64,000 nucleotides of DNA from assembly GCA_019090455.1 (NCBI GenBank), contig JAHRWA010000063.1, forward strand, positions 1-64,000, in the 5' to 3' direction. Made by a program: the position numbers and the translations under genes. A model generated the notes under the pieces. It ran no database searches and was not told the origin of the DNA. It saw nothing but the letters and a program-made list of their open reading frames with translations. Position 1 is the first letter of the stretch. Every line of letters begins with the position of its first letter. Positions 848-32,273 of the stretch are shown here, one piece after another. The DNA is from Pseudomonadales bacterium. GTDB lineage: Bacteria; Pseudomonadota; Gammaproteobacteria; Pseudomonadales; DC-out160.

Positions 848-3800
848 ATGTCACAAAACAAAAGCAAGGGCAGTTCAGCAAATTCGCGCAGTGAAGCTGA
901 AGAAAGAAAGCTTGATCGACGAATTCAGTCCAGAATCCAAAATACGCCAATCGCTGTGGTAGGGATGGCAAGTTTATTTCCTGATGCAAAAAATACCAAT
1001 GGATTCTGGGATAACATTCAGTCGAAAGTCGATAGCATTATTGATGTGCCGCCATCACGTTGGAATATCGATGATTACTATGATCCTGACCCTACTGTTC
1101 CAGATAAAACCTATTGTAAGCGTGGTGGCTTTATTCCTGATATCGGATTTAACCCGATGGAGTTTGGTCTTCCGCCGAATATCTTGGAAATAACCGACTC
1201 TTCTCAGTTGTTGTCCTTGGTTGTCGCTAAAGATGTATTGGAAGATGCGGGTATAGATGAAAGCTCGACTTATGACAGAGATCGTATTGGTATTACGCTA
1301 GGAATAGGCGGAGGACAAAAACTCAGTACTGGGTTGGGTACGCGTCTGCAATATCCTGTGTTAGAGAAAGTACTGCTTAAGAGTGGTATGTCTAAAGGGG
1401 ATGCAAACCAGGTAATTGATAAATATAAAAAGGCGTTTGCGACTTGGGAGGAAAACTCTTTTCCTGGGTTATTAGGTAATGTCATTGCCGGCCGTATAGC
1501 GAATCGATTTGATTTAGGTGGGGTCAATACGGTATTGGATGCAGCATGTGCTAGCTCATTGAGTGCAGCAAAAATGGCGGTATCGGAATTGTTAGACGGC
1601 CATAGTGACATGATGATCACTGGTGGTGCTTGTACCGATAACTCCATTTTTATGTATATGAGTTTTAGTAAAACACCGGCATTTTCTTCAAATGGTGAAA
1701 TTAGACCTTTTGATATAGATTCAAAAGGGATGATGGTTGGCGAAGGCATAGGCATGATCGTGCTTAAGCGTTTGGCTGACGCTGAGCGGGATGGTGATCG
1801 TATCTACTCCGTTATTCGTGGAATAGGCTCTTCTAGTGACGGCAAATTTAAAAGTATTTATGCGCCTCGCCCAGCAGGCCAAGTCAAAGCATTAACCCGA
1901 GCTTATGAAGCCGCTGGTTTTAAACCAGAAACTATCGGTTTACTTGAGGCTCATGGTACAGGAACTGCTGCCGGCGATGTTGCGGAATTCACCGCCTTAG
2001 ATGAAGTCTTCACCGACCAGGAAAACCCTAAACAGCATATCGCGCTAGGCAGTGTGAAATCTCAAATTGGACACTTGAAAGCGGGTGCGGGTATTGCAGG
2101 GTTTATTAAAGTTTCGCTAGCCCTGCATCATAAAGTGTTACCGCCTACTATCAATATCACGAAACCGAATCCTAAATTGAAAATTGAAGACACCGCTTTC
2201 TACCTGAACACAGAATCTCGCCCGTGGGTGCCGGCTGAAGATGGTAGTCCGCGCCGCGCTGGTGTTAGTGCGTTTGGATTTGGAGGGACCAACTTCCATT
2301 TTGCAGTAGAAGAATATAAACCTGGCTTGTTACCGAAGAGCCGACTTAATACTGTTGCCCAATCAAGCTTAATACATGCAGAGAATGCGACGAAGCTGGG
2401 TGAACTTTGTAAGCAACATTTGGCGCAGTTAAAAGATGAGAAAAATATCACTCGTTATCAAGAGTTTCTCACCGCCACAAAAATAAATGGTTGTCCTGAC
2501 AATCATGCAAGAATTGGTTTTGTTTCGGATAGTATTGAGGAGGCCACTAAGCTAATCGAAATGGCAGCTAAAACAGTCTCAGCAAAGCCAGATGCAGCGC
2601 ATTGGGAAATGCCTCAAGGAATCTATTTTAGAAATGCGTCTTTGGAAATAAAAGGCAAAGTGGTTGCATTATTTTCTGGGCAAGGTTCTCAATATCCAGG
2701 TATGGGAGGGGACTTAACTTCGAACTTTACTGAATATATGAATGCCGCAGGTAAGATGGACGGATTATTTTCTAAAGCAGGAAAAGGGCGTTTGTCGGAT
2801 AGAGTGCACCCGATTCCTGTATTTGAAGCGGTAGATCGTTCACTACAAGAGCGTGAGTTACAACAAACACAATATGCTCAACCTTCTATCGGTGTTTTCA
2901 GTGTCGGCAGTTATAAAATATTTGAAAAGGCCGGCTTTAAACCTGACTTCGTCGCAGGCCACAGCTTTGGCGAACTGACAGCATTATGGGCTGCGGGTGT
3001 TATCGGTGAAAATGATTACTTTAAATTAGCGTTTGCCCGAGGCCAAGCAATGGCTGCGCCTGACGAAGAAGGTTTTGACGCCGGAAGTATGCTGGCTGTC
3101 GTGGGAGATATTTCAAGCTTAGACCAAATGTTGGCGCAATATCCCAACGTGGTTAAGGCGAATAATAACTCTAAGACTCAAGTAGTTCTCGCCGGCCCTG
3201 GCAACGATATCCTTAAAATACAGGAAACATTACAGAATAAGGATGCGATACAAGGTAAAGAGTATAAAGCCATTCCGCTGCCTGTTTCCGCAGCTTTCCA
3301 TACGCCTTTAGTCGGGCATGCACAGAAGCCTTTCGCCGATGTGGTTCAGAAAGTTAATTTTAAATCGCCGTCCATTCCCGTGTATTCCAACACTAGTGGC
3401 GATGTGCATCCTAATAGCGGCAAGGCGATTAAGAAGACCTTAAAAGATCACATTTTAAAGCCCGTTAATTTCAAAGATGAAGTTGAAAAGATTTACAGTG
3501 ATGGTGGTTCAGTATTTATCGAGTTTGGGCCTAAGAATGTATTAACCAAATTGGTTGACAATATATTGGATGACAAACCTCATCTAGCCATTGCGGTGAA
3601 CGCGAGCAACAAGAAAAGCGCCGATAGACAATTGCGACAAGCCGTTCTGCAGCTTGCGGTAGCCGGCTTATCGCTAGCAGATATTGATCCCTATATGTCT
3701 GACCTGCGCATCACCAATACCGAAAAGCCTAGCCCAATGAAAATTGAGCTCGGTGCACCCAACTATGTCAGTGATAAAACAGCGAAAGCGTTTGACGACG

Positions 3801-6307
3801 CTTTAAATGACGGTTTTCAAATTGCGCAAGCAAAAGCGATAGCGGCTCCTGTTGCTAATGCAGTGGCTGCGGCCAAGCCAGTCACTACACCTGTTGTGCA
3901 AGCTAAAGTGGTGACAAGCGCTGTAACCAAAGCAGCAGCCAAACCCGTTTCTGTCAGTACCCAAGTGACCAACCCAGTAGTTACTCCAGCTGTAGCAGGT
4001 AATGCTTCAACGGGAGCCCCTAAGGCGAAACCCATAATGACGAATGAAGTAAATGATCAAACTGTTTCTGCGAATAGTATTAGTGGTAATAGGGTTGCGG
4101 AGAGTATTGAGAACAGCTTGTCTCAATTCTACCAACACCAAAATGAAACCTTAAAGGTGCATGAGCAGTACTTGGAAACGCCAAAGGAATATTCCCAGAC
4201 ATTTTCCACATTGATGCAACAGCAAATGGGAATGTTAGCCGATAATCCTGGTATGGAAATGCCTCAAAGTATTGAGCGCAGCATGATGATGTTCCATCAG
4301 CATCAGTCCGATACTTTACGTGTACATGAACGTTATCTAGATAATCAAGCCGATAGTACAAGCAAGACGCTTGAAGTGATGAAGGAGCAGTATTCTGTAC
4401 TGACTGGACTTTCTACGGGTTCAGCTGGTGCGTTAGGGACGGGTAATTTAGCGGGTGTAAATTCCGTGACTATTAGCCCCTCACCAGTGAAAGCGCTGCC
4501 AGCTTCTACGGTATCGACTCCAGCTAAAGTCGCTCAACCTGTTGCTCCGGCACCAGTTATAGCTACACCGGTTTCAACTACACCGGTTTCAACTACACCA
4601 GTTTCAACTGCAACTCCTGCTCCAGTACAGCCAGTGCCAGTCGTTCAGCAAGCGGCTCAGCCGTCTGCTGCTTCAGCAAGCAATTCTAATTTTGCTGCTG
4701 AAATAAAAGCAAGCATGTTGGCAGTGGTAGCAGAGAAGACGGGTTACCCTGTTGAGATGCTAGAGTTTGATATGGATATGGAAGCGGATTTGGGAATTGA
4801 CTCCATTAAACGTGTTGAAATTCTCGGTACTGTCCAAGAAGAATTTCCACAACTACCTGAGATGAATCCAGACGAATTGGCCGAGATGAGAACCTTAGGC
4901 CAAATCGTAGATTATATGGAAGCCCAAGTTGGCGATGTTCAGCCAGCAGCGGCCCCCTCTGCCACAGCTTCAGCTGCTCCCGTTCTTGCATCAACTGCAG
5001 TGATGACTCAATTAACCGATGTGATGTTATCCGTAGTAGCAGATAAAACGGGTTATCCCACTGAGATGTTAGATCTTGAAATGGATATGGAAGCGGATTT
5101 GGGAATCGATTCCATTAAACGGGTTGAGATTCTAGGCACCGTACAAGAAGAGTTTGCCGACTTACCCGAAATGAACCCGGATGAGTTATCTGAGCTACGG
5201 ACACTCGGACAGATTATTGATTATATGAAGTCTCATCTTGAAGCTAGCGCTCCTGCAGCGGTTGCGGCTCCTGCTCCCGCGCAAGTGAGTCAAGCGGCTT
5301 CAACAGAAGCATCCACTACATCGGGTGTTGATCTGGCGACATTGACTGAGACTATGTTGTCTGTCGTCGCTGAGAAAACCGGTTATCCCGTAGAGATGCT
5401 GGATCTTGGTATGGATATGGAAGCGGATCTCGGTATTGATTCCATTAAGCGTGTTGAAATTTTAGGAACAGTGACAGAAGCTTTCCCTGACCTGCCTGAG
5501 TTAAATCCTGAGGAAATGTCAGAGTTAAGAACGTTGGGTGAAATCGTAGAGAACATGAATTCCCAGCTTTTATCGTCTACTCCACAAGCATCTGCTCCTC
5601 AACCTGCTGCTCCCGTAGCACCTGCTCCCGCAGTTGCAGCCGCGTCCTCATCGGCGCCCAGTATCGATGTATCCAGATTAACTGACGTCATGTTAGCGGT
5701 TGTCGCAGAGAAGACAGGTTATCCCACAGAAATGCTGGAACTTGGCATGGACATGGAAGCGGACCTAGGTATTGACTCTATTAAGCGTGTTGAAATTTTA
5801 GGTACGGTACAGGAAGAATTTCCAGGCTTACCTGAAATGGACCCTGAAGCCATGTCTGACATGCGGACTTTGGGACAAATTGTTGATTACATGAAATCAA
5901 CAGTGGACTCCAGTGGCTCTAAAAGTACTGCTCCGGCTGAAGCCGCAGTCGCAGAAACGGCTACCGGCGTTAGCGTTAATTTGCAAAATCTGAAAGACAC
6001 GATGATGAGTGTTGTCGCTGAAAAGACCGGTTATCCCGTAGAAATGTTAGAGCTGGATATGGACATGGAAGCGGATCTTGGGATTGATTCAATTAAGCGT
6101 GTTGAGATCTTGGGTACGGTCCAAGAATCATTTCCTGAGTTACCTGAAATGAATCCCGACATCCTTGCGGAGCTTCGAACCTTAGGGGAAATCGTAGATT
6201 CGATGGAGCACCAACTCAATGGCGGTGGCGCATCGCGTGCGAGCACTCAAACGGGTGCAAGTGATCAGGAGATTCCTGCTGGAAAAAAGCCCTTAGCCCT
6301 GGAGTGA
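848..6307 (+). CDS. pfaA: PUFA synthase subunit PfaA, zero-frame product (KS-MAT-5xACP)
   Basis: N-terminal two thirds of PfaA, the iterative synthase that builds omega-3 PUFA from malonyl units. The ketosynthase occupies about residues 33-490, with active-site Cys234 in DAACASS and His motifs EAHGTGT and GSVKSQIGHLKAGAG. The malonyl/acyltransferase spans about 606-910, with nucleophile Ser706 in GHSFGE. An Ala/Pro/Thr-rich linker contains two copies of a helical segment (YQHQNETLKVHEQYL and FHQHQSDTLRVHERYL). Five acyl carrier domains follow, each with DLGIDSIKR; the phosphopantetheine serines are 1319, 1422, 1532, 1644 and 1748. The start ATG has GGGGAAG 4 nt upstream. Usual PfaA proteins continue into KR and DH domains; here the 0 frame stops at 6305-6307 and those domains follow in the -1 frame. 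See the frameshift signal at 6267-6329. Confidence 0.95.
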   Translation: MSQNKSKGSSANSRSEAEERKLDRRIQSRIQNTPIAVVGMASLFPDAKNTNGFWDNIQSKVDSIIDVPPSRWNIDDYYDPDPTVPDKTYCKRGGFIPDIGFNPMEFGLPPNILEITDSSQLLSLVVAKDVLEDAGIDESSTYDRDRIGITLGIGGGQKLSTGLGTRLQYPVLEKVLLKSGMSKGDANQVIDKYKKAFATWEENSFPGLLGNVIAGRIANRFDLGGVNTVLDAACASSLSAAKMAVSELLDGHSDMMITGGACTDNSIFMYMSFSKTPAFSSNGEIRPFDIDSKGMMVGEGIGMIVLKRLADAERDGDRIYSVIRGIGSSSDGKFKSIYAPRPAGQVKALTRAYEAAGFKPETIGLLEAHGTGTAAGDVAEFTALDEVFTDQENPKQHIALGSVKSQIGHLKAGAGIAGFIKVSLALHHKVLPPTINITKPNPKLKIEDTAFYLNTESRPWVPAEDGSPRRAGVSAFGFGGTNFHFAVEEYKPGLLPKSRLNTVAQSSLIHAENATKLGELCKQHLAQLKDEKNITRYQEFLTATKINGCPDNHARIGFVSDSIEEATKLIEMAAKTVSAKPDAAHWEMPQGIYFRNASLEIKGKVVALFSGQGSQYPGMGGDLTSNFTEYMNAAGKMDGLFSKAGKGRLSDRVHPIPVFEAVDRSLQERELQQTQYAQPSIGVFSVGSYKIFEKAGFKPDFVAGHSFGELTALWAAGVIGENDYFKLAFARGQAMAAPDEEGFDAGSMLAVVGDISSLDQMLAQYPNVVKANNNSKTQVVLAGPGNDILKIQETLQNKDAIQGKEYKAIPLPVSAAFHTPLVGHAQKPFADVVQKVNFKSPSIPVYSNTSGDVHPNSGKAIKKTLKDHILKPVNFKDEVEKIYSDGGSVFIEFGPKNVLTKLVDNILDDKPHLAIAVNASNKKSADRQLRQAVLQLAVAGLSLADIDPYMSDLRITNTEKPSPMKIELGAPNYVSDKTAKAFDDALNDGFQIAQAKAIAAPVANAVAAAKPVTTPVVQAKVVTSAVTKAAAKPVSVSTQVTNPVVTPAVAGNASTGAPKAKPIMTNEVNDQTVSANSISGNRVAESIENSLSQFYQHQNETLKVHEQYLETPKEYSQTFSTLMQQQMGMLADNPGMEMPQSIERSMMMFHQHQSDTLRVHERYLDNQADSTSKTLEVMKEQYSVLTGLSTGSAGALGTGNLAGVNSVTISPSPVKALPASTVSTPAKVAQPVAPAPVIATPVSTTPVSTTPVSTATPAPVQPVPVVQQAAQPSAASASNSNFAAEIKASMLAVVAEKTGYPVEMLEFDMDMEADLGIDSIKRVEILGTVQEEFPQLPEMNPDELAEMRTLGQIVDYMEAQVGDVQPAAAPSATASAAPVLASTAVMTQLTDVMLSVVADKTGYPTEMLDLEMDMEADLGIDSIKRVEILGTVQEEFADLPEMNPDELSELRTLGQIIDYMKSHLEASAPAAVAAPAPAQVSQAASTEASTTSGVDLATLTETMLSVVAEKTGYPVEMLDLGMDMEADLGIDSIKRVEILGTVTEAFPDLPELNPEEMSELRTLGEIVENMNSQLLSSTPQASAPQPAAPVAPAPAVAAASSSAPSIDVSRLTDVMLAVVAEKTGYPTEMLELGMDMEADLGIDSIKRVEILGTVQEEFPGLPEMDPEAMSDMRTLGQIVDYMKSTVDSSGSKSTAPAEAAVAETATGVSVNLQNLKDTMMSVVAEKTGYPVEMLELDMDMEADLGIDSIKRVEILGTVQESFPELPEMNPDILAELRTLGEIVDSMEHQLNGGGASRASTQTGASDQEIPAGKKPLALE
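4563..4607 (+). repeat. 15-bp tandem repeat in the pfaA linker
   Basis: Three direct copies of CTACACCGGTTTCAA, the last with one substitution, encode a TTPVS repeat in the Pro/Thr-rich linker before the ACP array. A flexible, slippage-prone spacer between catalytic domains and carrier domains is the likely meaning. Confidence 0.75.
4690..6230 (+). repeat. Five tandem acyl carrier protein domains of PfaA
   Basis: Five homologous units of 103-112 codons each encode an ACP with the core DMEADLGIDSIKRVEILGTV, separated by Ala/Pro/Ser linkers. The number of ACPs in PfaA varies between organisms (about four to nine) and mainly affects PUFA yield. DNA identity between the units is high around the core motif, so recombination or assembly collapse could alter the count. 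Confidence 0.95.
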
Positions 6308-6329
6308 GTAGTGGCATTCCCAGGGTTAA
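6267..6329 (+). promoter_or_regulatory. Candidate programmed -1 ribosomal frameshift signal in pfaA
   Basis: Three elements are arranged as in the E. coli dnaX cassette. An internal Shine-Dalgarno sequence AGGAG is at 6267-6271. The slippery heptamer A AAA AAG at 6283-6289 is in the required reading phase (GGA AAA AAG). A hairpin follows, with core arms CCCTGG (6297-6302) and CCAGGG (6320-6325), extendable to 10 bp with one G-U pair as TTAGCCCTGG/CCAGGGTTAA. The heptamer-to-core-stem spacer is 7 nt. Slipping back by one at the heptamer enters the open frame of the KR-DH part without meeting a stop and would give one protein of about 2,640 residues, a normal PfaA length. The alternative is a lost A in a 7-A run, by mutation or sequencing error. 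Confidence 0.65.
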
Positions 6330-8760
6330 ATTAATTTCCAATCCAGATCAGCTTTTATTACCTATTGCGGACAATAGAAGTTGCATTATTACTGATGACG
6401 GCAGTGTGTTAACCGCTGAGTTAGCGGATGCATTGTCTCGTATTGGGCATGGAGTGGTTGTGTTGCGTTTTCCTCTAGACGTCGTTGCAGAACGAAGCCA
6501 GTTAGGAGAAGGCATTGCACAAGTCGAATTGCAAAACATGGAAGAAGACCACCTGACTGAAGTGCTCAATGCGATACATCAAGAGTTGGGGCAAGTGTCT
6601 AACTTTGTTCATCTTGATTCGGATTATCAAATTGGCGATTTGGACGGTTTAGATTTTTCTGAGCGTAAAAAATTAGTGCTACGGCATGTCTTTTTAATGG
6701 CTAAGCATTTGAAAGTGTCACTGAATGAGCTGTCGGAAGTTAATGGTACTGCTGCTCGCAATTCATTTATTACGGTGGCTCACCTAGATGGACGTTTAGG
6801 TTACGGTGATGGCAAATTCTCTGCTGTAGGCGGAGGGTATTTTGGCCTCACTAAGACCATGAATTTGGAATGGCCGAGTGTTTATTGTCGAGCCATCGAT
6901 ATTCATCGCGATATTGAGGGAGCCAATGCAGCGGCTATCGTCTTGGCCGAAATGTTAGCGGCTGATACTACTCATGTTGAGGTAGGGTATACCAAAGAAG
7001 GGCGTGCGACTTTAGAGGCAAACCCCGTCACTACCATTGACGCTGCAGGAAATCATATTGATAAAAACTCAGTATTTTTGGTAAGCGGTGGTGCGAAAGG
7101 CGTGACCTCTCAGTGTGCGATCAAACTCGCGCAAGCCCATCAGTGTCAGTTTATCTTGCTCGGACGTTCAGAGTTTACCGGTGAAGATCCGGCTTGGGCT
7201 GCGGGTTGTGACGATGAGACGGAATTGAAAAAACGAGCGATGACAGTGCTGAAGGAGGCGGGCGAAAAACCCACGCCTGTTAAAGTACAAGGGATTTTAC
7301 GTCCTGTTTTCTCTCAGCGTGAAATATCCGCCGTCTTAAATGATATCAGGCTAGCAGGCGGAACAGCCGTGTATCTAAGCTGTGATGTCACCAATGCGGA
7401 ATCAGTACGACAACAGCTTGCCAGTGCGACACAGCAGGTTGGGGCCATAACCGGAATCATTCATGGAGCCGGTGTATTAGCAGATAAGCTGATTGAAAAG
7501 AAAACCATTGCTGATTTTGAAGCGGTCTATTCCACTAAGGTCAACGGTCTTGGCGCCATATTGGATTGCGTGGCAGTGGATCAACTGAAACATTTGGTTT
7601 TATTCTCTTCAGCGGCGGGTTACTTCGGTAACGCAGCGCAATCGGATTACTCCATTGCCAATGAAATATTGAATAAGACGGCTATGAGCTTTAAAGCAAG
7701 TCATCCCAATTGCCACGTTATTTCTTTTGACTGGGGCCCCTGGGATGGTGGCATGGTCACGGCACAATTGAAGAAGCTATTTGAAGAGCGGAATATCGAG
7801 GTAATCCCGATCGATGGTGGAACGCAATTGTTTGTGGATAACTTGGCTTCGGCTTCGAATGATGCATGTCAGATTCTAGTGGGAAGTACGATGGAGTTTG
7901 ATGCAGCAGAATCCGATCCCGCATTTAAAAGCTATCGAATTGCACGAACGATTTCCATCGACGATAACCCGTTTCTCTTAGACCATACTTTGGGCGAAAA
8001 TCCCGTATTGCCCATGGTCTTTGCTGCTTCCTGGATCGTTGAGGCCGCGGAAGGTTTATACGCGGGTTACACTCTAAGTGCCATAGAAGACTTCCGTCTG
8101 TTTAAAGGGATAGTGTTGGATAGTTCAGCCTCAACCAATTATTTCCTGGATATTGAAGAAATAGAAAAGGGGGACTCCATTCGACTCAAAGCTTCTATTT
8201 GGAGCGAAGGAGACAAGCGTAATAATCATTACGCCTCTGAGGTATTGTTGTCCCGTCAGAAAGTTCCCGCTCCTATCACATCCTCTATGAACTTAGGTGA
8301 AGGGGGTAGCGTAGATGGCTCTATTCTTTATTGTGACGGCACTTTATTTCACGGCCCTAAGTTTCAGCTAATCAAGAGCCTTGTGAATTACACCAACAAA
8401 CGATTGACCTTGCTCTGTAAAGCACCGAGCAATACGGGTGTGACATTGGGGCAATTTACCTCCCATGCAACAGACCCACTGATAGCGGATCTTAATTTTC
8501 AAGCCATGCTAATTTGGGTTCGCAAAGACAGTGATTGCGGGAGTTTACCTTCCAGTGTTGATAAAATTGAGCACTTTGAAGCAATACCTGAAGGGCAGGA
8601 GTTTTATTTGACGCTAGATGTGAAAGAAAATACGTTGCGAAAAATGGTAGCGAATATTCTATTGCACGATGCTAACGGTAAGGTCTATAGCCAATATACT
8701 GGCGCCAAGGTGACTGTGAGCAAAGAGTTAAATCATTTGTTCCAATCTACTGCATCATAA
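6304..8760 (+). CDS. pfaA: PfaA C-terminal part (KR and PKS-type DH), in the -1 frame
   Basis: Encodes the domains missing from the zero-frame PfaA product. The beta-ketoacyl reductase has the Rossmann motif SGGAKGVTS from about residue 260 and catalytic SSAAGYFGNAAQSDYSIANE with Tyr449. A C-terminal hot-dog dehydratase-like domain of PKS type follows, with the candidate catalytic His561 in LLDHTLGENPVLPM. The only nearby start is GTG 6304, overlapping the pfaA stop as GTGA; no Shine-Dalgarno sequence lies at the correct distance (AGGAG ends 32 nt upstream). That favours entry by frameshifting at 6283-6289 over independent initiation, though coupled termination-reinitiation is possible. The preceding -1 frame is open back to the slippery site. 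Related PfaA proteins are normally one chain ending in these domains. Confidence 0.9.
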   Translation: MSSGIPRVKLISNPDQLLLPIADNRSCIITDDGSVLTAELADALSRIGHGVVVLRFPLDVVAERSQLGEGIAQVELQNMEEDHLTEVLNAIHQELGQVSNFVHLDSDYQIGDLDGLDFSERKKLVLRHVFLMAKHLKVSLNELSEVNGTAARNSFITVAHLDGRLGYGDGKFSAVGGGYFGLTKTMNLEWPSVYCRAIDIHRDIEGANAAAIVLAEMLAADTTHVEVGYTKEGRATLEANPVTTIDAAGNHIDKNSVFLVSGGAKGVTSQCAIKLAQAHQCQFILLGRSEFTGEDPAWAAGCDDETELKKRAMTVLKEAGEKPTPVKVQGILRPVFSQREISAVLNDIRLAGGTAVYLSCDVTNAESVRQQLASATQQVGAITGIIHGAGVLADKLIEKKTIADFEAVYSTKVNGLGAILDCVAVDQLKHLVLFSSAAGYFGNAAQSDYSIANEILNKTAMSFKASHPNCHVISFDWGPWDGGMVTAQLKKLFEERNIEVIPIDGGTQLFVDNLASASNDACQILVGSTMEFDAAESDPAFKSYRIARTISIDDNPFLLDHTLGENPVLPMVFAASWIVEAAEGLYAGYTLSAIEDFRLFKGIVLDSSASTNYFLDIEEIEKGDSIRLKASIWSEGDKRNNHYASEVLLSRQKVPAPITSSMNLGEGGSVDGSILYCDGTLFHGPKFQLIKSLVNYTNKRLTLLCKAPSNTGVTLGQFTSHATDPLIADLNFQAMLIWVRKDSDCGSLPSSVDKIEHFEAIPEGQEFYLTLDVKENTLRKMVANILLHDANGKVYSQYTGAKVTVSKELNHLFQSTAS

Positions 8761-8824: not shown

Positions 8825-8871
8825 GTGTAAAACAATAAAAACAGTTGTGGAAAGAGACCAATAAGGCAGTG

Positions 8872-11523
8872 ATGAATTCTCCTAAATATTCCATCGTCGG
8901 GATGGGCGCTTGTGCCGGAGCAGCGGAAGGCTTGGATAGATTAGATCAACTGATCTTTGACAGCTCCCAGGCTTTTTCTTGTCGTACAGTGAACGGCGTT
9001 GATTTGTTTGGTGGGTTTTTAGCTGCTGATTCAGCGAAAGATAAATCGGGCTTAACGCTGTTGGAGAGAGTTGTTAAAGAGGCTGTTGATGACGCGAATA
9101 TGGGCACTATTACGGGTGAAATCTCGGGGGCCAGTATGGATTCAGTCGCGAGTTTGTCACTGAATGATTGCGGCTTGATTCTCGTGTCCGATGATGTCCG
9201 TCTACATGACAGTTCTTTTTTATCAGACAGCACTGTTTTGAAAGAGTGTAAGTCTATTCTTCAGGTTTCTAGTTTCGCGGAGGCGCTGCGTACAACAGAA
9301 AAATTCCAAGATCAGTGCAATGGGTGCGCTGTTATCGTAGCTGCTGTGCATCTGATGGATGAGAAGTTATTGTCGTCGCATAATGTCCTTCAACAGGAGC
9401 CTCGATTGGTAGAACAAGAAACACCTTCGTTAGTTTTTGATGCTTCTGACCCTATCGGTGTCTTGGGCGAAGGTGCTGCGGCCATGGTTTTAGTTAGGCA
9501 TTCCAGTACCCTTGAGATTAACAGTACCCATGAGATTAACAGTAACGATGAGGATTCCAATAGCGAGGAGTCGGTTCAATTTAGAGCGCCACGCCATTAC
9601 TCGACGATAGAGGCGTTTGCTGATGTGCAGAATTCAAATATCGATCAGTCTCAAATTAACAACACCCTCCAACAAGCTCTATCTCTGACGGGTATAGCAG
9701 CTGCTGATGTTTCTTATCTAGAGGTGACCGCGGCGGGTGATACGACTGTAGATGATGCAGAATTACAGGCAATCTTGTCTATTTACGGTGAAGCCCAAAC
9801 TGAGAACAACGTTGGAAAAAGAGAGCTGAAGAGTGTGATGGGTAGTGCCACCACGACTTTTGGTTATGCTAATTGTGTATCGAGTTTGTTGTCCGTCATA
9901 AAAACTAGCCTCTGTTTGTACCATCGATATCTGCCGGGTACACCGGGATGGACCGGCCCAAAAGATACGGACAGCTGGAGTGAAAGCAGTGTCTATGTTC
10001 CCAATGACTCACGGAGTTGGTTTGTGGAACATGAGGCTCCCCAGCGAAATGCCGCAGTCAGTTTAGTTGAAGGAGATCGATATTCTCATATTATTCTTTC
10101 CGATCAATCGGCTCCGATACAACGACCTAATCAATACCTAGCAGAGGTGTGTTGTTACGTATTTCCGATTGCGGGAGATACGGAATCTGAATTGGCGGAT
10201 AAGCTAGGTCGGTTGTTGGCTGATCTGGTGAGTCCTAATTTAAAAACCACGGCGCTACAATATTATCGTAATGCGGAACTGGAGGTAGAGAAAAGATATG
10301 CCGCTATTATTCTGGGTGATACGAGAGAGTCTTTAGAGAAAGAAGTCGCATCTATACAAAATGGACTTAGCAAAGCCTTTACTGAATTAGGAGAGATAAA
10401 AACACCCAAGGGAAGTTACTTCACTGCGAGTCCGTTGGGGCGAGACGGCGATGTTGCGTTTATGTACCCTGGAGTTGGTAGCTCCTATGTAGGGCTAGGG
10501 CAAAAGATATTTCACTTGTTTCCGTCGGTGTACGAAACGGCGGTGACCATGACATCTAGCTTGGGTCGAGTACTCAAAGAAGACCGTCTCTATCCCCGAA
10601 GTCAACATCAATTAAGTTTTAAAGAAAAACGACAAATAGATGTGGATCTTCACAGCGACTTAGATTCCATTGGCGAAACCGATACCGCTTTCTCAGTGGT
10701 TTGCACAAAAGTGATGATGAATGTATTTGGCGTGACCCCCACTGCTGCCTTTGGATACAGTATGGGAGAAGCGAGTATGATGAGTGCATTGAGTATTTGG
10801 ACTAACCCTGCGGAAGTCGGGGACCGAATTACACACTCACCGATTTTTAAGAACAAGTTATACGGTGAATTAAGCTCGTTAAAGGAATTCTGGGGACTAC
10901 CTCAAAGTACCGATAGCACCACTTTGTGGAATACCCTCACGATGAAAGCCTCAGCGGAAGACGCATTAAAGGCCATAGGCGATGAGAAACAGGTTTATCT
11001 CGCGCTGATCAATACGCCTGAAAATGTAGTGATTACTGGTGAAAGAAAAGCCTGTGAACGGGTAGTGGAAAGGCTTGGATGCAGAGCTATTTCTATGGGT
11101 TTTGTCCCCGCGATTCACAGTCCGCCGACTCGCACTGAATATGAGGGAATAGTGAATCTCTATACTCAGCCTTTGGTTGAGAATCAGTTGGACGTTAAAT
11201 TATATTCCACTTCTTGTTATCTTCCTGTTCCCCATCGTAGCAATGCCATAGCACATGCCATAGCCAAGTGTTTTTGCGATCCTGTTGATTTCCCTCGTAT
11301 CGTTAATAAGGCTTACGATGAAGGTGCGAGAATATTTGTCGAAGCCGGTGCAGGACGATCTTGTTGTACTTGGATAGATAAAATATTAAAGAATAAAGAA
11401 CATGTGGTCGTGCCGCTGAATGCCAAAGGGACTGATGATCATTTAACATTTACTCGAGCTATTGCCAAACTCTATTGTCATCGCGTCGAAGTTGATTTGG
11501 CTCCTTTTTATAATGTTCACTAG
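8872..11523 (+). CDS. pfaB: PUFA synthase subunit PfaB (inactive KS/CLF-like region plus acyltransferase)
   Basis: PfaB of about 883 residues. The N-terminal half is a degenerate ketosynthase-like region with no DAACASS cysteine motif. It keeps KS-fold signatures such as VLGEGAAAMVLV and the SVMGSATTTFGYANCVSSLL stretch that replaces GSVKxxxGH. It carries a low-complexity insert rich in Asn, Ser and Glu (about residues 222-240). The C-terminal half is an acyltransferase with nucleophile Ser630 in GYSMGE. PfaB's acyltransferase is thought to influence the PUFA product profile (EPA or DHA). The whole protein parallels the CLF-AT part of PfaC in this window, down to WTGPKD versus WSGPKD and YFTASPLG versus YFTAKPLG. 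I chose ATG 8872 with TAAGG 5 nt upstream; TTG 8845 would add nine residues. Confidence 0.9.
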   Translation: MNSPKYSIVGMGACAGAAEGLDRLDQLIFDSSQAFSCRTVNGVDLFGGFLAADSAKDKSGLTLLERVVKEAVDDANMGTITGEISGASMDSVASLSLNDCGLILVSDDVRLHDSSFLSDSTVLKECKSILQVSSFAEALRTTEKFQDQCNGCAVIVAAVHLMDEKLLSSHNVLQQEPRLVEQETPSLVFDASDPIGVLGEGAAAMVLVRHSSTLEINSTHEINSNDEDSNSEESVQFRAPRHYSTIEAFADVQNSNIDQSQINNTLQQALSLTGIAAADVSYLEVTAAGDTTVDDAELQAILSIYGEAQTENNVGKRELKSVMGSATTTFGYANCVSSLLSVIKTSLCLYHRYLPGTPGWTGPKDTDSWSESSVYVPNDSRSWFVEHEAPQRNAAVSLVEGDRYSHIILSDQSAPIQRPNQYLAEVCCYVFPIAGDTESELADKLGRLLADLVSPNLKTTALQYYRNAELEVEKRYAAIILGDTRESLEKEVASIQNGLSKAFTELGEIKTPKGSYFTASPLGRDGDVAFMYPGVGSSYVGLGQKIFHLFPSVYETAVTMTSSLGRVLKEDRLYPRSQHQLSFKEKRQIDVDLHSDLDSIGETDTAFSVVCTKVMMNVFGVTPTAAFGYSMGEASMMSALSIWTNPAEVGDRITHSPIFKNKLYGELSSLKEFWGLPQSTDSTTLWNTLTMKASAEDALKAIGDEKQVYLALINTPENVVITGERKACERVVERLGCRAISMGFVPAIHSPPTRTEYEGIVNLYTQPLVENQLDVKLYSTSCYLPVPHRSNAIAHAIAKCFCDPVDFPRIVNKAYDEGARIFVEAGAGRSCCTWIDKILKNKEHVVVPLNAKGTDDHLTFTRAIAKLYCHRVEVDLAPFYNVH

Positions 11524-11591
11524 AAAATGTTCATTAGAATATTTTCACTAGCAGATGTTCAATAAAGCTTGTTCAACAAATTAAGAATTCA

Positions 11592-11619
11592 ATTCTCAAT
11601 AGTTTCAATAGTTGAGAAT
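11592..11619 (+). repeat. 8-bp inverted repeat in the pfaB-pfaC gap
   Basis: ATTCTCAA and TTGAGAAT flank a 12-nt loop in the 157-nt intergenic region. The same gap has imperfect repeats of TTCACTAG/TTCATTAG (11513-11555). No T tract follows. It may affect expression between pfaB and pfaC, with no direct support beyond the symmetry. Confidence 0.4.
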
Positions 11620-11680
11620 GAGCAGTACAAAACACAAATCTGAATAACACTGACTAAATATTTTTAAGGTATCAAAGAGA

Positions 11681-14600
11681 ATGAGTAAAATTGCCGTCAT
11701 AGGGATGTCCAGTTTATTTCCGGGTTCAAGTACGAATGAAGTATTTTGGCAGAACCTGATAGATAAGAAGGATTGTCGATCAGAAGCCACCGAGAAAGAA
11801 ATGAGTGGTGATCCCAATGCATTTTACGCTAGCGCTAAAGGTGTTGATGACCGCTATTACTGTATGAACGGCGGCTACGTTCATGAATTCGAGATGGATG
11901 GGGAGGGGATTAATCTGCCAGCGGAACAGCTTGATGCGCTGGATGATATGTTTAAGTGGTCTCTGTATGCGGCACGAGAGGCGTTGAAAGATAGCGGCTA
12001 CATTAATAATGATGCAGTGTTAGAACGCTGTGGTGTGATTTTGGGTAACTTGTCTTTTCCAACGAAATCATCGAATCAGATATTTTTACCTATTTATCAT
12101 CGCGCTTTAAATGACGCAGTTGCTAAATTATTAGATGACGATCAATTCGTTTTACCGCGATATGCTGAAAGCCAAGCCGTATTGCCTCACAACGGATTAA
12201 TTTCTGGCTACCCTGCTGCCTTAATAGCGCAAGCGCTCAATTTGAAAGGCTCCAACTTTGCTTTGGATGCCGCTTGTGCCTCTTCACTTTATTCCACCAA
12301 GTTGGCCTGTGACTACCTCACTTCTGGACGCGCCGATATCATGTTGGCAGGAGCGATCAGTGGTGCAGATCCCTTGTTTGTCAATATGGGCTTTTCAATA
12401 TTTCAAGCGTATCCGGAAAACGGAATTAGTGCGCCACTAGATACTCGCTCTGAAGGGCTCTTTGCCGGAGAAGGGGGCGGAATGTTGGTGTTGAAACGTT
12501 ATGACGATGCGGTAAGAGATGGCGATAATATTTATGCAAAAATTGAGGGTGGCGGATTATCAAATGATGGAAAAGGGCAATTCGTTTTAAGTCCGAATAC
12601 AAAAGGTCAAGTGTTGGCGTACGAGCGCGCGTATAATGAAGCCAATTTGTCTCCCAGTGATGTAGATTATATTGAGTGCCACGCAACGGGAACACCCTTA
12701 GGCGATAAAGTAGAACTCACATCAATGGAGACCTTTTTTGGAAAAGGCGATCGTGTTCCTTATATCGGTTCGGTTAAGTCTAACTTAGGCCACCTATTAA
12801 CAGCGGCTGGTATGCCAGGAATGATCAAAGTCATACTGGGTATGCAAAAAGGCGTCATTCCAGCAACCATCAACATAGAGCAAGCTCAGCAATCTCCTAA
12901 TCAATTATTCGACGCAGATAAAATTGTTTCCGATGCAATGGAGTGGCCTAGCAATCGTGGTGATGAGCCGAAGCGTGCGGGAGTTAGTGTTTTCGGTTTC
13001 GGTGGTGCGAATGCACATTTGATTTTTGAGGAGCAGAAAGAAGGGACTGCGCAAACAGAAAGTGCTACCCCCTCAAAAACATCCGTTGCACCTGAAGCGA
13101 TCTCCATTGTGGGTATGGACGCTTATTTTGGTGGCTGCGATAGCTTAGAAGCTTTTGACGAGACCCTATATCAAGGGCGGCAACACTTTAGACCATTACC
13201 AACCGATAGGTGGAAGGGATTAGATCAAGATCCAGCGGTATTAGATTCGTTAAAGTCTATTCCTGAGGGTGCCTATATCGATCAGTTTGATTTAGATTTT
13301 CTTCGCTTCAAAATCCCCCCAAATGAAGATGACCGACTTATTCCACAGCAGTTGTTACTTTTAAAAGTCGCAGATCGAGCGCTACAAGATGCGAAGATCG
13401 AGCCTGGTTCGAATGTGGCGGTACTGGTGGCCATGGGGACAGAGCTAGAGCTTCATCAATTTCGAGGCCGAGTAAATTTACAGGCGCAATTTCCAGAAGC
13501 TTGGGATAACGCAACATCCACTTTGAGTGAAGAAAATAAAAAGGCCGTAGAAGATATCACTAAGGGTAGCTTGCACGGATTGGCCAAGTTAAACCAATAT
13601 ACCAGCTCTATTGGTAATATCATGGCCTCTCGAGTGTCATCACTTTGGGATTTTTCAGGTCCGGCATTTACGGTGTCAGCGGAAGAGAATTCAGTCTTTC
13701 GAGCGATTGAGATTGCGCAATTATTATTTGAAACTTCGGACGTCGAGGCCGTGGTGGTGGGTGCTATCGATTTGGCGGGCAGTATCGAAAACGTCTTATT
13801 ACGTAATTCGTTTGGTCCTGTTGGGAATGGTAAAGTCTCCCTAAGTCTTGAAAAAGACGTTAATGGCTGGGTGGTGGGAGAAGGCGCTGGCGCTATAGTC
13901 TTACGTCGAAGTGCTGATGCGAAAGCGGATGAAAGTCCGATTTACGCCAATATCGACGCGATCGGATTCGAAATGGGCAGCGATGCCAATAGTTTGTCTA
14001 GCGCGGCTCAAAAGACCTTGGCTCAAGCGCAGGTGGATGCCAAACAGGTTGAGTATATTGAATTACACGGTTCTGGTTTTGCCGATCAAGACGCGGCTGA
14101 GCTAGGCGCAATGTTAAACGTTTATCGGGGGGAAGAGGGCGCAGAACCCCATTACGCACTCGGTAGTGTTAAAGCCACCGTAGGCCACACATTCAATGCA
14201 TCGGGTATGGCCAGTATTATTAAAACGGCGTTGTGTTTAAACAATCGTTATATACCCGCGACGCCACAGTGGAGTGGACCTAAAGATATCGGGATTGATT
14301 GGCAGAGCACAGGATTCTATGTACCGACGGAATCTAAAACCTGGTTGAAAAATAGTGAAGAAGGTGTACGAAGAGCGGCGATTAATGGTTTAGGGATGGA
14401 CGGAGCCAGTTGTCATCTGGTGTTGTCAGAATCGGAAATACATTCTCACCCAACTAATACCGCGTTATACAATCAATCACAAAAGCTGTTCCTCTTTAAT
14501 GGCAATAGTGGCGATGAGTTTAGAGTCCAACTATCAGAGCTGGAAAATCAACTTAATGAAGGATCTAGCTTAGAAAGTTTAGCAACAAGTCGTTTTCAAA

Positions 14601-17600
14601 AGGCCAGCGAAAATTCAACTATTAATTATGCTGTGGCATTGATAGCCTCTAGCCCTGATGAATTAAGAAATGAAATGTCATTGTTACTCACCAGTATCGA
14701 TAGCACCATTGCTAAAGGTTCCGAGTGGGCTTCACCGAATGGGAGTTATTTTACCGCTAAGCCTTTAGGTCCTACGGGGAAAGTGTCTTACGTTTATCCT
14801 GGTGCCTTTAACTCTTATTCCGGGTTGGGTAAAGATCTTTACTACTTGCTGCCTGAGCTACACCCCTATGCGGATCAACAATCAACACGTTTGGCCACTT
14901 TGATTGGGGATAAGATATTTTACCCTCGTAGTATGAATGCCATTGATAAAGATACTCGTCGTCGACATGATCGCTCATTGACGGACTACCCCATTAATAT
15001 GTTTGAAAATGGAATATCCCATGCCGTGACTTACACGGATATTATGCGGGATATATTCAAGGTCAATGCAGGAACGGCTTTTGGATATAGCATGGGAGAG
15101 GTTTCCATGATGTATGCCTTGGGTGTTTGGGGCAAGACCGATGGCATGAGTACTATCTTACGTACGACTCCGGTTTTCCAAACGCGATTGGCCGGACCCA
15201 TGGAGACGTTACGGGATGCTTGGAACTTACCGAAAGAGACTGTTGCCGATAATACATTTTGGTCTGGATTCACTGTGCAAACTTCAGCTGATGCAATGGG
15301 CGATGCACTGAAGGGTGAAGAGTTCGTAAAACTCATTTTAATCAACTCACCCAATGAAGTGGTCATTGCAGGAAAGCCGGAAGATTGCCAACGCGTATTG
15401 GATGCACTGGGTGTGAGTTATGTAGCGGCTGCACTGGGCGATGTGATTCATTGCGACTTAGTGCGAGCGGATTACGATGCTTTAGCGACGTTACACACTA
15501 TGCCTGTGTCTCAGCCGGAGAATATGAATTTCTTCACTGCGGTAGGGTACAAACCTTTGGCTATCAATAGTGATGGAATCGCGAATAACATTGCCGAGAT
15601 GTACTGCAATCATGTGGATTTCCCTAAGCTTGTTAATACGGTTTATGAATCAGGGAGTCGAATATTTTTGGAGTTAGGACCGAGAGATGCCTGCACTCGA
15701 AATATCGATAGCATCTTGGCCGATAAGGAGCATGTTTCTATTGCTGTTAATCGTAAGGGGTCGAGTGACTATAACTCTCTGGTACGAGCTTTAGCGAAGT
15801 TGGCAAGCCATCAAGTGGATATGGACCTTTCTCGTTTGTTCCGCCAGCCCGAAGAAGACAATAAGCCCAAACGAAAACTCATTAAAGAAGTGAAAATGGG
15901 TAGTGAACCATTACAACAAATAATTTTGACCGAAGAGAACATCAATCAGTTTAGATCTTCTCCGATGGCTGCATCGCCGGCTATGGTAGTTAAGCCGGTT
16001 ACTAAACCGACTGTTACTAAACCGATTGTTGATAAACCTACAGTTACTAAGCCTAACCTAACCAAAACTAAAAATACGCCAGCTAGTCCTGTCACCCAAT
16101 TGAGTCAACGAGTAGAAGAGATTAAACCCATGCCTACGTCTATCAAGAAAACAAGCAATACCAATGGGGATATTGCTAAACCAGCAGTTGCCAATACCGA
16201 AATGATTTCCGGGGAGATAGATTCAACGCAAATGGATTTATACCGACATAATATGTCGGGTATCAGCAGTGCCCATTCTTCATTTTTAGAATCACGAAGA
16301 AAGTCTATGGAATCCGTTGCAGAGTTAATTGCGTTACAAACTAGCGCCGCAGCAAAGGGATTGCTGACTTCAGATTCTGTTTCAGAAGTTGCCACTGCCC
16401 AGACTACGGCGTCGATTGCTGAGCCTGTTGTACCGAAGTCGATCGTTTCGAAACCAATTGTATCGAAACCAGTCATAACGCCTGTAATATCAAAACCCGC
16501 TGCGATTAAACCTGTTATTACTAAACCTGTTGTTGCCGCTCCCATAAAAACGGAACCGAAAGGAACCCTGGTAAGAGAAAAAGCGGAAGGTGTTATCTGG
16601 GATGAAGCTGACCTAGTGGAATTTGCTGAGGGTAAGATCGCTAATGTTTTCGGTGAAGACTTCGCGATTATCGATACCTATCCGCGCCGAGTTCGCTTGC
16701 CTACCACCGAGTATCTATTGGTGTCGCGCGTGACTAAACTGGATGCAACTCCTGGCAAGTATGAGCCCTGCTCACTGACCACAGAATATGATATTCCCTA
16801 TGATGCCTGGTATGCCGTTGATGGACAGATTCCGTGGGCGATTTCGGTTGAATCTGGGCAGTGCGATTTATTACTGATTAGTTATTTAGGTATCGATTTT
16901 GATAACAAGGGCGAGTACATGTATCGCCTCTTGGATTGCACGTTGACCTTTATGGATGATATCCCCGTAGAAGGCGAGACCCTGCGATATGACATTAAAA
17001 TAAACAATTACGCTAAAAACGGTAATAACCTTTTGTTCTTCTTTAGCTACGAATGCTTTGTTGGAGACAAAATGGTATTGAAGATGGACGGAGGAGCCGC
17101 TGGATTCTTCAATGATAAAGAACTAGAAGATGGTAAAGGCGTCATCGAGACGCTAGCTGAGAAAAAAATTAGAGAAGCGATACCGAAACAATCTTTCCAA
17201 CCGTTACTGACTTGTGAGAAAAACCAATACGATTACGACGATATGCTTGCATTGTGCCGCGGGGATCTTACCGCTTGCTTTGGCAACGACTATGATCAAG
17301 GCGGCTTGAACAGCGGCTTAGTTTATTCCGCGCCGAAGATGCTTATGATCGAGCGCATAACCAAAGTCGACCGCAAAGGGGGTAGCTGGGGTCTGGGTTT
17401 GATTGAAGGGGAGAAGACGTTGCATCCTGATCATTGGTATTTCCCATGCCATTTTAAAGACGACCAAGTGATGGCCGGCTCGTTGATGTCAGACGGCTGT
17501 GGCCAATTGTTGCGGTTTTTCTCTTTCTACTTAGGATTACAGACTAAGACTAACAATGCCCGTTTTCAGCCGATCCCTAATTTGCCGCAGCAAGTTCGCT

Positions 17601-19054
17601 GTCGTGGCCAAGTGAGACCGCAGCACGGCACTTTGATTTATCGTATGGAAGTGACTGAAATTGGATTGGACCCCACGCCTTTTGCGAAAGCGAATGTGGA
17701 TATTCTTCTCAACGGTAAAATTGTGGTTGATTTTAAAAACCTAGGTCTCTACCTCAAAGAAGGGGAAGTGGTGGGGCTTGATCTAGATTCAGCTGTGTCT
17801 ACTTCACGACCTGAGAATGTGAAGATACCGGGGTTATACGACATGCGACCAGCACCGTTTAAGCCTTTCCCTGGCAATTCACTAGATAGTAATTTTATAC
17901 CCGATACAGTCCCTTACACGGATTATCATTTTACTGAATTTGCCACCGGTAGAATCGCCAACTGTTTTGGTGAAGAATTCGCTTGTTACGATGGCCGTAC
18001 ACCACCGCGTACACCGAATGCAGATTTGCAGTTAACCACGCGAGTCATAGAAGTCATCGGTACTCGACATGACTTAAAAACGAAGGCCACTGTTGTCGCT
18101 GAATTTGATGTGCCAGGGGATGCCTGGTTTTACAAAGGTAATAGCATTGACTCCTTAATGCCTTATTCTATTTTGATGGAAATCGCATTACAGCCTTGCG
18201 GGTTTATTTCAGCCTGGGTGGGTACAACTTTGCAGTCTCCTGAAACAGATCTTTATTTCCGAAACTTGGATGGCTCAGGGGATTTACTGCGAGAGGTTGA
18301 TTTGCGCGGTAAGACCATCACTAATCGTTCCAGCGTGCTTTCCACTGTTTCTGCTGGTAATACGATTATTCAAAGTTTTGAATTTGATTTGAGTGTGGAT
18401 GGCGAAGATTTTTATAAGGGTACTGCTGTATTTGGATACTTTCTTGCCGACGCGTTAAAGCATCAATTAGGAATGGATAAAGGAGAGCTTAAAGGACCTT
18501 GGCATCAGGAGCAGGGTGTTGATTCCGCGCAGGTGATTTCTTTAGACATGAAAGCGCAGGATACACAGGAAAAACTGTATCAAGCGAAACTGGAAAAGCC
18601 CTACTATCACTTGGCCGGTCCCCAACTTGATTTTGTCGATACGATCGACATTGTGGAGAATCATGGCACTGGCGGTAAAGGCTTTGTTTACGCGGAAAAA
18701 ACCATAGTGAAAGATGACTGGTTTTTTCCTTGTCACTTTCATCAAGATCCTGTTATGCCCGGATCTTTGGGTGTGGAGGCAATGATGCAATGTTTGCAGG
18801 TGTTCACCTTGCAGCAAGATTTAGGGAGCCACTTGAAGAACCCCAGATTCGATCAAGTCGTGGATAAGATCAGTTGGAAGTATCGTGGGCAGATTATTCC
18901 AGCTAACAAAATGATGACTTTGGATTTACACATTACCGACGTAATCAAAACTGAAGATAGCGTACAGGTGGTTGCCACTGGGAATCTGTATAAAGATGGG
19001 TTGCGAATATATGAAGTAGCGGATTTGACCTTGCGTCTAGTGGAAGCAGAATAA
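11681..19054 (+). CDS. pfaC: PUFA synthase subunit PfaC (KS-CLF-AT-DH-DH)
   Basis: Giant subunit of 2,457 residues. Order: active ketosynthase (about 1-465; Cys199 in DAACASS; ECHATGT; GSVKSNLGH); chain-length-factor-like KS (about 475-925) in which the Cys position is Glu669 in SAEENS; acyltransferase (about 1020-1400; Ser1137 in GYSMGE); a long Lys/Pro/Thr/Val-rich linker (about 1425-1625); and four hot-dog repeats forming two FabA-like dehydratase units, with His1924 in CHFKDDQVMAGS and His2352 in CHFHQDPVMPGS. These dehydratase/isomerase domains create the cis double bonds. Gammaproteobacterial PfaC proteins known to me are about 2,000 residues (KS-CLF-DH-DH) without an internal AT. The roughly 450 extra residues match that domain, an arrangement more like the KS-CLF-AT order of thraustochytrid synthases. 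Start ATG is preceded by AAGAGA. Confidence 0.93.
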   Translation: MSKIAVIGMSSLFPGSSTNEVFWQNLIDKKDCRSEATEKEMSGDPNAFYASAKGVDDRYYCMNGGYVHEFEMDGEGINLPAEQLDALDDMFKWSLYAAREALKDSGYINNDAVLERCGVILGNLSFPTKSSNQIFLPIYHRALNDAVAKLLDDDQFVLPRYAESQAVLPHNGLISGYPAALIAQALNLKGSNFALDAACASSLYSTKLACDYLTSGRADIMLAGAISGADPLFVNMGFSIFQAYPENGISAPLDTRSEGLFAGEGGGMLVLKRYDDAVRDGDNIYAKIEGGGLSNDGKGQFVLSPNTKGQVLAYERAYNEANLSPSDVDYIECHATGTPLGDKVELTSMETFFGKGDRVPYIGSVKSNLGHLLTAAGMPGMIKVILGMQKGVIPATINIEQAQQSPNQLFDADKIVSDAMEWPSNRGDEPKRAGVSVFGFGGANAHLIFEEQKEGTAQTESATPSKTSVAPEAISIVGMDAYFGGCDSLEAFDETLYQGRQHFRPLPTDRWKGLDQDPAVLDSLKSIPEGAYIDQFDLDFLRFKIPPNEDDRLIPQQLLLLKVADRALQDAKIEPGSNVAVLVAMGTELELHQFRGRVNLQAQFPEAWDNATSTLSEENKKAVEDITKGSLHGLAKLNQYTSSIGNIMASRVSSLWDFSGPAFTVSAEENSVFRAIEIAQLLFETSDVEAVVVGAIDLAGSIENVLLRNSFGPVGNGKVSLSLEKDVNGWVVGEGAGAIVLRRSADAKADESPIYANIDAIGFEMGSDANSLSSAAQKTLAQAQVDAKQVEYIELHGSGFADQDAAELGAMLNVYRGEEGAEPHYALGSVKATVGHTFNASGMASIIKTALCLNNRYIPATPQWSGPKDIGIDWQSTGFYVPTESKTWLKNSEEGVRRAAINGLGMDGASCHLVLSESEIHSHPTNTALYNQSQKLFLFNGNSGDEFRVQLSELENQLNEGSSLESLATSRFQKASENSTINYAVALIASSPDELRNEMSLLLTSIDSTIAKGSEWASPNGSYFTAKPLGPTGKVSYVYPGAFNSYSGLGKDLYYLLPELHPYADQQSTRLATLIGDKIFYPRSMNAIDKDTRRRHDRSLTDYPINMFENGISHAVTYTDIMRDIFKVNAGTAFGYSMGEVSMMYALGVWGKTDGMSTILRTTPVFQTRLAGPMETLRDAWNLPKETVADNTFWSGFTVQTSADAMGDALKGEEFVKLILINSPNEVVIAGKPEDCQRVLDALGVSYVAAALGDVIHCDLVRADYDALATLHTMPVSQPENMNFFTAVGYKPLAINSDGIANNIAEMYCNHVDFPKLVNTVYESGSRIFLELGPRDACTRNIDSILADKEHVSIAVNRKGSSDYNSLVRALAKLASHQVDMDLSRLFRQPEEDNKPKRKLIKEVKMGSEPLQQIILTEENINQFRSSPMAASPAMVVKPVTKPTVTKPIVDKPTVTKPNLTKTKNTPASPVTQLSQRVEEIKPMPTSIKKTSNTNGDIAKPAVANTEMISGEIDSTQMDLYRHNMSGISSAHSSFLESRRKSMESVAELIALQTSAAAKGLLTSDSVSEVATAQTTASIAEPVVPKSIVSKPIVSKPVITPVISKPAAIKPVITKPVVAAPIKTEPKGTLVREKAEGVIWDEADLVEFAEGKIANVFGEDFAIIDTYPRRVRLPTTEYLLVSRVTKLDATPGKYEPCSLTTEYDIPYDAWYAVDGQIPWAISVESGQCDLLLISYLGIDFDNKGEYMYRLLDCTLTFMDDIPVEGETLRYDIKINNYAKNGNNLLFFFSYECFVGDKMVLKMDGGAAGFFNDKELEDGKGVIETLAEKKIREAIPKQSFQPLLTCEKNQYDYDDMLALCRGDLTACFGNDYDQGGLNSGLVYSAPKMLMIERITKVDRKGGSWGLGLIEGEKTLHPDHWYFPCHFKDDQVMAGSLMSDGCGQLLRFFSFYLGLQTKTNNARFQPIPNLPQQVRCRGQVRPQHGTLIYRMEVTEIGLDPTPFAKANVDILLNGKIVVDFKNLGLYLKEGEVVGLDLDSAVSTSRPENVKIPGLYDMRPAPFKPFPGNSLDSNFIPDTVPYTDYHFTEFATGRIANCFGEEFACYDGRTPPRTPNADLQLTTRVIEVIGTRHDLKTKATVVAEFDVPGDAWFYKGNSIDSLMPYSILMEIALQPCGFISAWVGTTLQSPETDLYFRNLDGSGDLLREVDLRGKTITNRSSVLSTVSAGNTIIQSFEFDLSVDGEDFYKGTAVFGYFLADALKHQLGMDKGELKGPWHQEQGVDSAQVISLDMKAQDTQEKLYQAKLEKPYYHLAGPQLDFVDTIDIVENHGTGGKGFVYAEKTIVKDDWFFPCHFHQDPVMPGSLGVEAMMQCLQVFTLQQDLGSHLKNPRFDQVVDKISWKYRGQIIPANKMMTLDLHITDVIKTEDSVQVVATGNLYKDGLRIYEVADLTLRLVEAE

Positions 19055-19091
19055 TAAACAGATTAGTCCAACCATTTAATATGAACTCTTT

Positions 19092-19119
19092 ATTTAGAAC
19101 CCTTTATTTAGAACAATAG
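19092..19119 (+). repeat. Short tandem repeat before pfaD
   Basis: The unit CTTTATTTAGAAC occurs twice in tandem, one base apart, in the 78-nt pfaC-pfaD gap. It is probably a slippage product with no assigned role. Confidence 0.5.
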
Positions 19120-19132
19120 GAACTCAAAAACA

Positions 19133-26074: not shown

Positions 26075-26102
26075 GATATTACCTCAGGTTGTTCAGCTTT
26101 CA

Positions 26103-26143
26103 ATGTATAAGCCAGCTTGTATGAACGTGCATGTATAAGCCAG
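26103..26143. repeat. 13-bp direct repeat between SDR and racemase genes
   Basis: ATGTATAAGCCAG occurs at 26103-26115 and again at 26131-26143, 28 bp apart. It could be a regulator half-site pair or a duplication remnant. Confidence 0.45.
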
Positions 26144-26158
26144 GATGTCTTACGTTTG

Positions 26159-30567: not shown

Positions 30568-30582
30568 AATGATTTTCGGTAT

Positions 30583-32261: not shown

Positions 32262-32273
32262 GAGCGTTACCCC

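Follow-up and report, generated by a model that had tools for sequence, protein, structure and literature searches.

The question raised by this locus is why the open reading frame (ORF) of pfaA, a polyunsaturated fatty acid (PUFA) synthase gene of a Pseudomonadales bacterium (assembly GCA_019090455.1, contig JAHRWA010000063.1, positions 1 to 64,000; this stretch of 64,000 nucleotides (nt) is referred to as the window), ends just past the last ACP of its array while the KR and DH domains lie in the -1 frame. We propose, with a probability of roughly 0.6, that the ACP/KR border is a dnaX-like -1 recoding site which would give both a short KS-AT-ACP5 protein of 1819 aa and a full-length KS-AT-ACP5-KR-DH PfaA of 2637 aa (1814 + 823 aa), and that cells probably make the short and the long enzyme from this one gene. 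The initial annotation, made from the sequence letters, had described a dnaX-like cassette that would fuse the two halves of PfaA; we retain the cassette but not the idea of mere fusion, as two products are expected.

The two pfaA ORFs combined cover the PfaA profile TIGR02813 almost end to end, with the 0-frame part matching profile positions 2–1706 (2350 bits against a cut-off of 1010) and the -1 part positions 1755–2581 (660 bits), and the -1 frame carrying KR and DH has no stop from 6265 to 8760. At the junction the slippery heptamer A_AAA_AAG is read in the ACP frame as the codons GGA AAA AAG, giving the phase X_XXY_YYZ, and is followed by CCC. It should be noted that in E. coli A_AAA_AAG is the most shift-prone heptamer, with a sole tRNA-Lys involved, that CC is the dinucleotide giving the most shift when placed 3' of it, and that gaps of 9–14 nt from a Shine-Dalgarno (SD) sequence are effective for -1 shifting (PMC5009743). 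In this genome a pattern search (≤2 mismatches, not exhaustive) found one tRNA-Lys(ttt) and no ctt. The hairpin downstream has a folding energy of -18.4 kcal/mol (z-score -2.35, with 5 of 200 shuffles folding equally well) and begins 3 nt after the heptamer at its first pair and 7 nt after it at its G+C-rich core. Across 55 kb of coding sequence the window contains 14 A_AAA_AAN heptamers that are in phase, and only the one in pfaA combines an SD-like motif with a hairpin of z < -2. As read from the sequence, the anatomy of this putative cassette is within the published ranges for dnaX-type sites. The heptamer and its phase, the AGGAG 11 nt upstream, the stem-loop core 7 nt downstream, the division of the domains between the two frames and the lack of an SD sequence before the alternative GTG start were all as the initial annotation had claimed, as was the junction peptide GKKALSPG of the predicted slip product (peptide GKKALSPGVSSGIPR). 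The short form would end in GKKPLALE.

Under the proposed mechanism, translating ribosomes would pair with AGGAG and then encounter the hairpin. Some of them would slip back one base on A_AAA_AAG and go on to make the full-length PfaA; the others would terminate five codons further on, releasing KS-AT-ACP5. The slipping itself, its frequency and the use of both products are what we infer here; the simplest guess for the short form is that it fixes the proportion of subunits carrying KR-DH to those lacking it, comparable to tau and gamma of DnaX.

The origin of the frame break can be approached through G001, metagenome-assembled genome NORP220, which belongs to the same genus and is the sole close relative compared (one other family genome); its KR-DH is 81% identical to that of the window. 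The G001 pfaA is uninterrupted, with an open frame of 2233 aa that ends at the end of the contig, and alignment places a single-base difference 5 nt 3' of the heptamer (G001 TTAAGCCCTGG, window TTAGCCCTGG; in short form TTAAGCCC in G001 against TTAGCCC in the window). No seventh A was found in the run, and the seven-A alternative raised in the initial annotation was dropped because the missing base (TTAA to TTA) aligns downstream of the A-run and an ancestor with seven A would require more changes. An uninterrupted pfaA with neither heptamer nor stem-loop in close relatives had been named there as pointing to an error or a simple mutation; G001 is indeed uninterrupted, yet it keeps AGGAG, the identical 11-nt gap, A_AAA_AAG and the hairpin (z -2.2). 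Its wiring is the opposite one, with the long protein in the 0 frame and a -1 slip that would lead to a short protein with a stop after seven codons. Having all three elements in opposite wiring, G001 indicates that the site is probably older than the frame break, and from the aligned sequences a single base change probably swapped the long and short forms between the two genomes (the ancestral side was taken from fused outgroups, with one assembly per side). The window wiring, with the long form in the -1 frame, stands or falls with this one base.

The site is also conserved at the level of codons. Of the conserved degenerate codons, just 46% are the same in the window and G001, whereas the segment reaching from the heptamer to the end of the hairpin is 4th of 1708 among 20-codon windows and 9th of 1718 among 10-codon windows for codon conservation; the codons of the hairpin arms are all identical, with differing codons placed in the loop or outside. 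This suggests an RNA constraint older than the frame change. We used codon identity, together with a relative-rate count, because synonymous sites are saturated for an estimate of the ratio of nonsynonymous to synonymous change between the two species. These data bear on whether pfaA has suffered a fresh loss-of-function mutation and is on its way to becoming a pseudogene, with the A-run and hairpin incidental. The break is absent from G001, and an IS481-type transposase ORF (1–765, open at the window edge) lies immediately 5' of pfaA, both of which would fit such a decay. However, KR-DH runs without a further break over 2.4 kb, pfaB, pfaC and pfaD are intact, synonymous constraint extends across the site in both genomes, and the KR-DH derived changes show no excess on the window branch (21 against 15 on the G001 branch, p = 0.41), so that we regard decay as very improbable.

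A second explanation for the difference is a sequencing or assembly error, in which one A was lost at 6293–6295 from a gene that is in reality uninterrupted, like that of G001; it is worth noting that the dnaX-like site would remain in this case and would then make the short product. The uninterrupted G001 gene favours this, as do the single assembly available for the species and the presence of a hairpin on the very spot. Against it, the missing base is from an AA pair and not from a long homopolymer, and domain matches revealed no breaks in pfaB, pfaC and pfaD or in the 20 genes checked from 22.9 to 42.7 kb (these checks on neighbouring genes were our stand-in for a genome-wide estimate of error rate). 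The same kind of break is moreover found at the same border in many relatives from independent assemblies, as described below, and we consider an error unlikely, though the least so of the alternatives.

The positions of the features discussed are collected in Table 1, including those of the remainder of the operon, which has the order pfaA–pfaB–pfaC–pfaD according to the ORF list and domain profiles. Genes of acyl and CoA metabolism are found nearby (25313–41863), including an SDR reductase, a CoA-transferase III, a nitronate monooxygenase and two tandem acyl-CoA dehydrogenases (39395–41863).

Table 1. Features of the pfaA recoding site and the pfa operon in the window.
Feature	Position	Strand	Remarks
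pfaA 0-frame ORF	848–6307	+	KS, AT and five ACPs; 1819 aa, predicted short product
Overlap of the two frames	6265–6307	+	0 frame and -1 frame both open
Internal SD-like AGGAG	6267–6271	+	Heptamer 11 nt further on
Slippery heptamer A_AAA_AAG	6283–6289	+	Six A and one G, in ACP-frame phase
KR-DH reading after predicted slippage	6289–8760	+	-1 frame; 823 aa
TTA, where G001 has TTAA	6293–6295	+	Single-base difference placing KR-DH in the -1 frame
Hairpin	6293–6329	+	Arms 6293–6306 and 6315–6329
GTG	6304–6306	+	Sole nearby start for a separate KR-DH protein; overlaps the stop (GTGA); without SD
0-frame stop TGA	6305–6307	+	Five codons past the heptamer
Rest of operon	8845–20755	+	All intact: pfaB 8845–11523, pfaC 11681–19054, pfaD 19133–20755

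We gathered relatives from genome contigs, whole genomes and plasmids, obtaining 104 distinct loci with the ACP motif, the window among them; three (L174, L175 and L177) were excluded from the frame count because the match begins deep in KR, and with the addition of the Persicobacter psychrovividus plasmid pPP1 the set came to 102. KR-DH was out of frame with the ACPs in 25 of these 102 loci, the window included, and in all 25 the direction of the break was -1 and the overlap held a canonical in-phase slippery heptamer. The comparison of relatives called for by the initial annotation, which found the A6G and stem-loop kept in G001 and a heptamer at the same border in every out-of-frame locus, favours the cassette more broadly than that annotation had claimed. 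The heptamers were A_AAA_AAA or A_AAA_AAG, mostly inside runs of A8–A10, except for G_GGA_AAG in L119 and L192. Such a heptamer occurs in an average of 0.9% of equal-length windows of the same genes, and in 7.7% in the worst case, and A8+ runs are 30-fold denser in the ACP/KR linker than in the remaining ORF sequence. The split loci fall into about seven lineages (by our own grouping on a quick tree, and with the lineages related to one another), and when each lineage is counted once we obtain p = 0.016 from the direction alone and p < 1e-7 from the heptamers.

Split copies are distributed along deep branches, with 10 of 11 loci split in one Bacteroidota clade, six of eight in one cyanobacterial clade, and both loci of a pair to which SAR324 belongs, and comparable signals at the ACP/KR border were seen in relatives from at least four bacterial phyla. 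This recurrent pattern is not what sequencing error or gene decay would give, and, as far as sequence comparison can tell, the family-level case for recoding is strong.

The same loci are informative about a real split into two genes, in which KS-AT-ACP5 ends at 6307 and KR-DH is produced by reinitiation at the GTG and acts in trans. The four-base stop/start overlap (GTGA, 6304–6307) is as found in coupled genes, and the split pfaA of Psychroflexus torquis (KS-AT-ACP5 and KR) has been described as two genes (PMC3098273). The GTG is without an SD sequence, however, and among the 25 split loci the first possible start is > 40 nt past the stop in 17, with an SD-like motif in only three; a plain split also predicts neither a heptamer in every overlap nor an exclusive -1 direction. 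Two independent genes are thus improbable in our view.

The possibility that RNA polymerase, rather than the ribosome, slips on the A-run has to be weighed separately for the window and for its relatives. The A8–A11 runs of cyanobacterial and Bacteroidota members are of a length that has been tied to transcriptional slippage (PMC3711429), and these members show no consistent SD sequence or hairpin. In the window the run is only A6, which is below the criterion for such slippage (a homopolymer A-run > 7), and it is accompanied by ribosomal stimulators; in addition, every break is in the -1 direction, which by the criterion of Antonov et al. points to ribosomal shifting (PMC3711429). Transcriptional slippage is therefore a most improbable explanation for the window, but for the A8–A11 members it and ribosomal shifting are equally possible. 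The downstream hairpin is present in the genus of the window and in L111; we dropped it as a family-wide feature as it is inconsistent in the A8–A11 members.

The opposite wiring seen in G001, where the 0 frame encodes the long form, is also found elsewhere in the family. In a mostly gammaproteobacterial clade of 13 fused loci, the second Val of a VVKK motif is encoded by GTA in 11, and GTA AAA AAG occurs in 10 (the exceptions being L135 with GTA followed by AAA AAA, L133 with GTC AAA AAG and L040 with GTG AAG AAA); the Val codon before this and the codons after it vary, the 0 frame is open, and all 13 retain a TGA in the -1 frame six codons further along. Of the 45 Val columns in a codon alignment, only this one is dominated by GTA; AAG dominates in two of the 43 Lys columns, that of the heptamer included, and of the 32 Pro codons only the CCT forming the -1 TGA is invariant. 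Judged by this alignment, the heptamer and the nearby -1 stop are under synonymous constraint in the fused clade. We also considered an ACNAC/GTNGT hairpin directly 5' of the heptamer in these bacteria (A2 columns 4–8 and 19–23; L041, L054, L056 etc.), which has one covarying third-position pair (permutation p = 0.005, with 9 of 436 column pairs as good); it loses significance once all column pairs are taken into account, and we make no claim for it.

Fused cyanobacterial members with A9–A11 likewise have a -1 stop within 0–16 codons. Two Persicobacter plasmids (L191 and L192; 1.6 and 1.1 Mb) both carry G_GGA_AAG, one being fused and the other split, and going by their sequences this pair repeats the situation of the window and G001. 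We note that the PfaA-like gene is on a very large plasmid in both Persicobacter strains. The near relatives L115 and L123, from two Fischerella species, differ by one A in the same run (A9 fused, A8 split), from which either the frame relation can flip by run length or there is a homopolymer error in one of the assemblies. Separately, a second break lies some 245–320 codons 3' of the A-run in the cyanobacterial loci L174, L071, L077, L081, L085, L087, L109, L120, L122 and L171; in L174 the KR reading there has its own ATG (MIDQTSVFLVSGG), so that this break, in contrast to the ACP/KR border, looks like an ordinary boundary between genes.

Several observations weigh against a recoding site in the window and in the family. 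Such a site is missing from about 48 members, around half of the family and among them Psychromonas and most Nostocales, which would mean that it has been gained and lost, as reported for csoS2. The frame break is absent from the only close relative, as seen in one assembly, and not being shared with G001 it would be a recent split in the lineage of the window. KK codons can by themselves produce A_AAA_AAG, and the Rfam dnaX element had no match at 6150–6450 even at E values up to 10, Rfam giving nothing relevant on the site.

With these points considered, we think it rather likely that -1 recoding at the ACP/KR border lets PfaA/HglEA-type lipid megasynthases of several phyla produce KS-AT-ACPn both with and without KR-DH. 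The slippery element would be exchangeable (A_AAA_AAG with SD and hairpin, A8–A11 runs, or G_GGA_AAG), lineages would flip the wiring by single-base changes near the site since both forms are wanted, and pfaA genes annotated as split or broken would be functional. The breaking of pfaA at this border was already known from Psychroflexus torquis, and it is the slippery site at the break that is new as far as we could find: no report of frameshifting in PUFA, polyketide or heterocyst-glycolipid synthases was found in the open-access literature, in agreement with the initial annotation, though an earlier listing in Sharma et al. 2011 or in the supplements of Antonov et al. 2013 is possible. Recoding itself is a known device; what was first noticed in a single gene recurs among PfaA/HglEA-type synthases. 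If true, the proportion of subunits carrying the ketoreductase-dehydratase to those lacking it is set genetically in tandem-ACP megasynthases, and this variable has not yet been considered in PUFA engineering; the 'split pfaA' clusters are explained; and genes annotated as frameshifted are live. The window with G001, and one Persicobacter plasmid with the other, form natural pairs whose shared slip site has opposite wiring, making the role of the two products directly testable.

The closest known system is dnaX, which shares the SD-like motif, A_AAA_AAG and hairpin and the long and short products from one gene (PMC3711429, PMC5009743). The likeness extends to the family, whose members differ in wiring and may have A_AAA_AAG or a long A-run at the site, and dnaX too has reversed wiring in some Chlorobi and A9 slippage in Thermus (PMC3711429, PMC5009743). 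In contrast, pfaA is unrelated to dnaX, being a type I lipid megasynthase gene whose short form lacks KR-DH, and its element is without sequence homology to that of dnaX. Among PUFA synthases, the PfaA homologue of the type D cluster of Shulse and Allen (Psychroflexus torquis) breaks at the same border (PMC3098273); compared by description, the split pfaA of types D and H are presented as two separate genes, and the part of the account considered makes no mention of a slippery site or frame relation. The carboxysome gene csoS2 has two length forms made by -1 frameshifting in part of the family only (79 of 162 species), but encodes another protein and has no reported SD stimulator (PMC5009743). 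Finally, the magnesium chelatase cluster of Antonov et al. 2013 is split or fused depending on the genome, with an A-run at the break and shifting that has been demonstrated, although it concerns another enzyme and its A-runs are longer than that of the window (PMC3711429).

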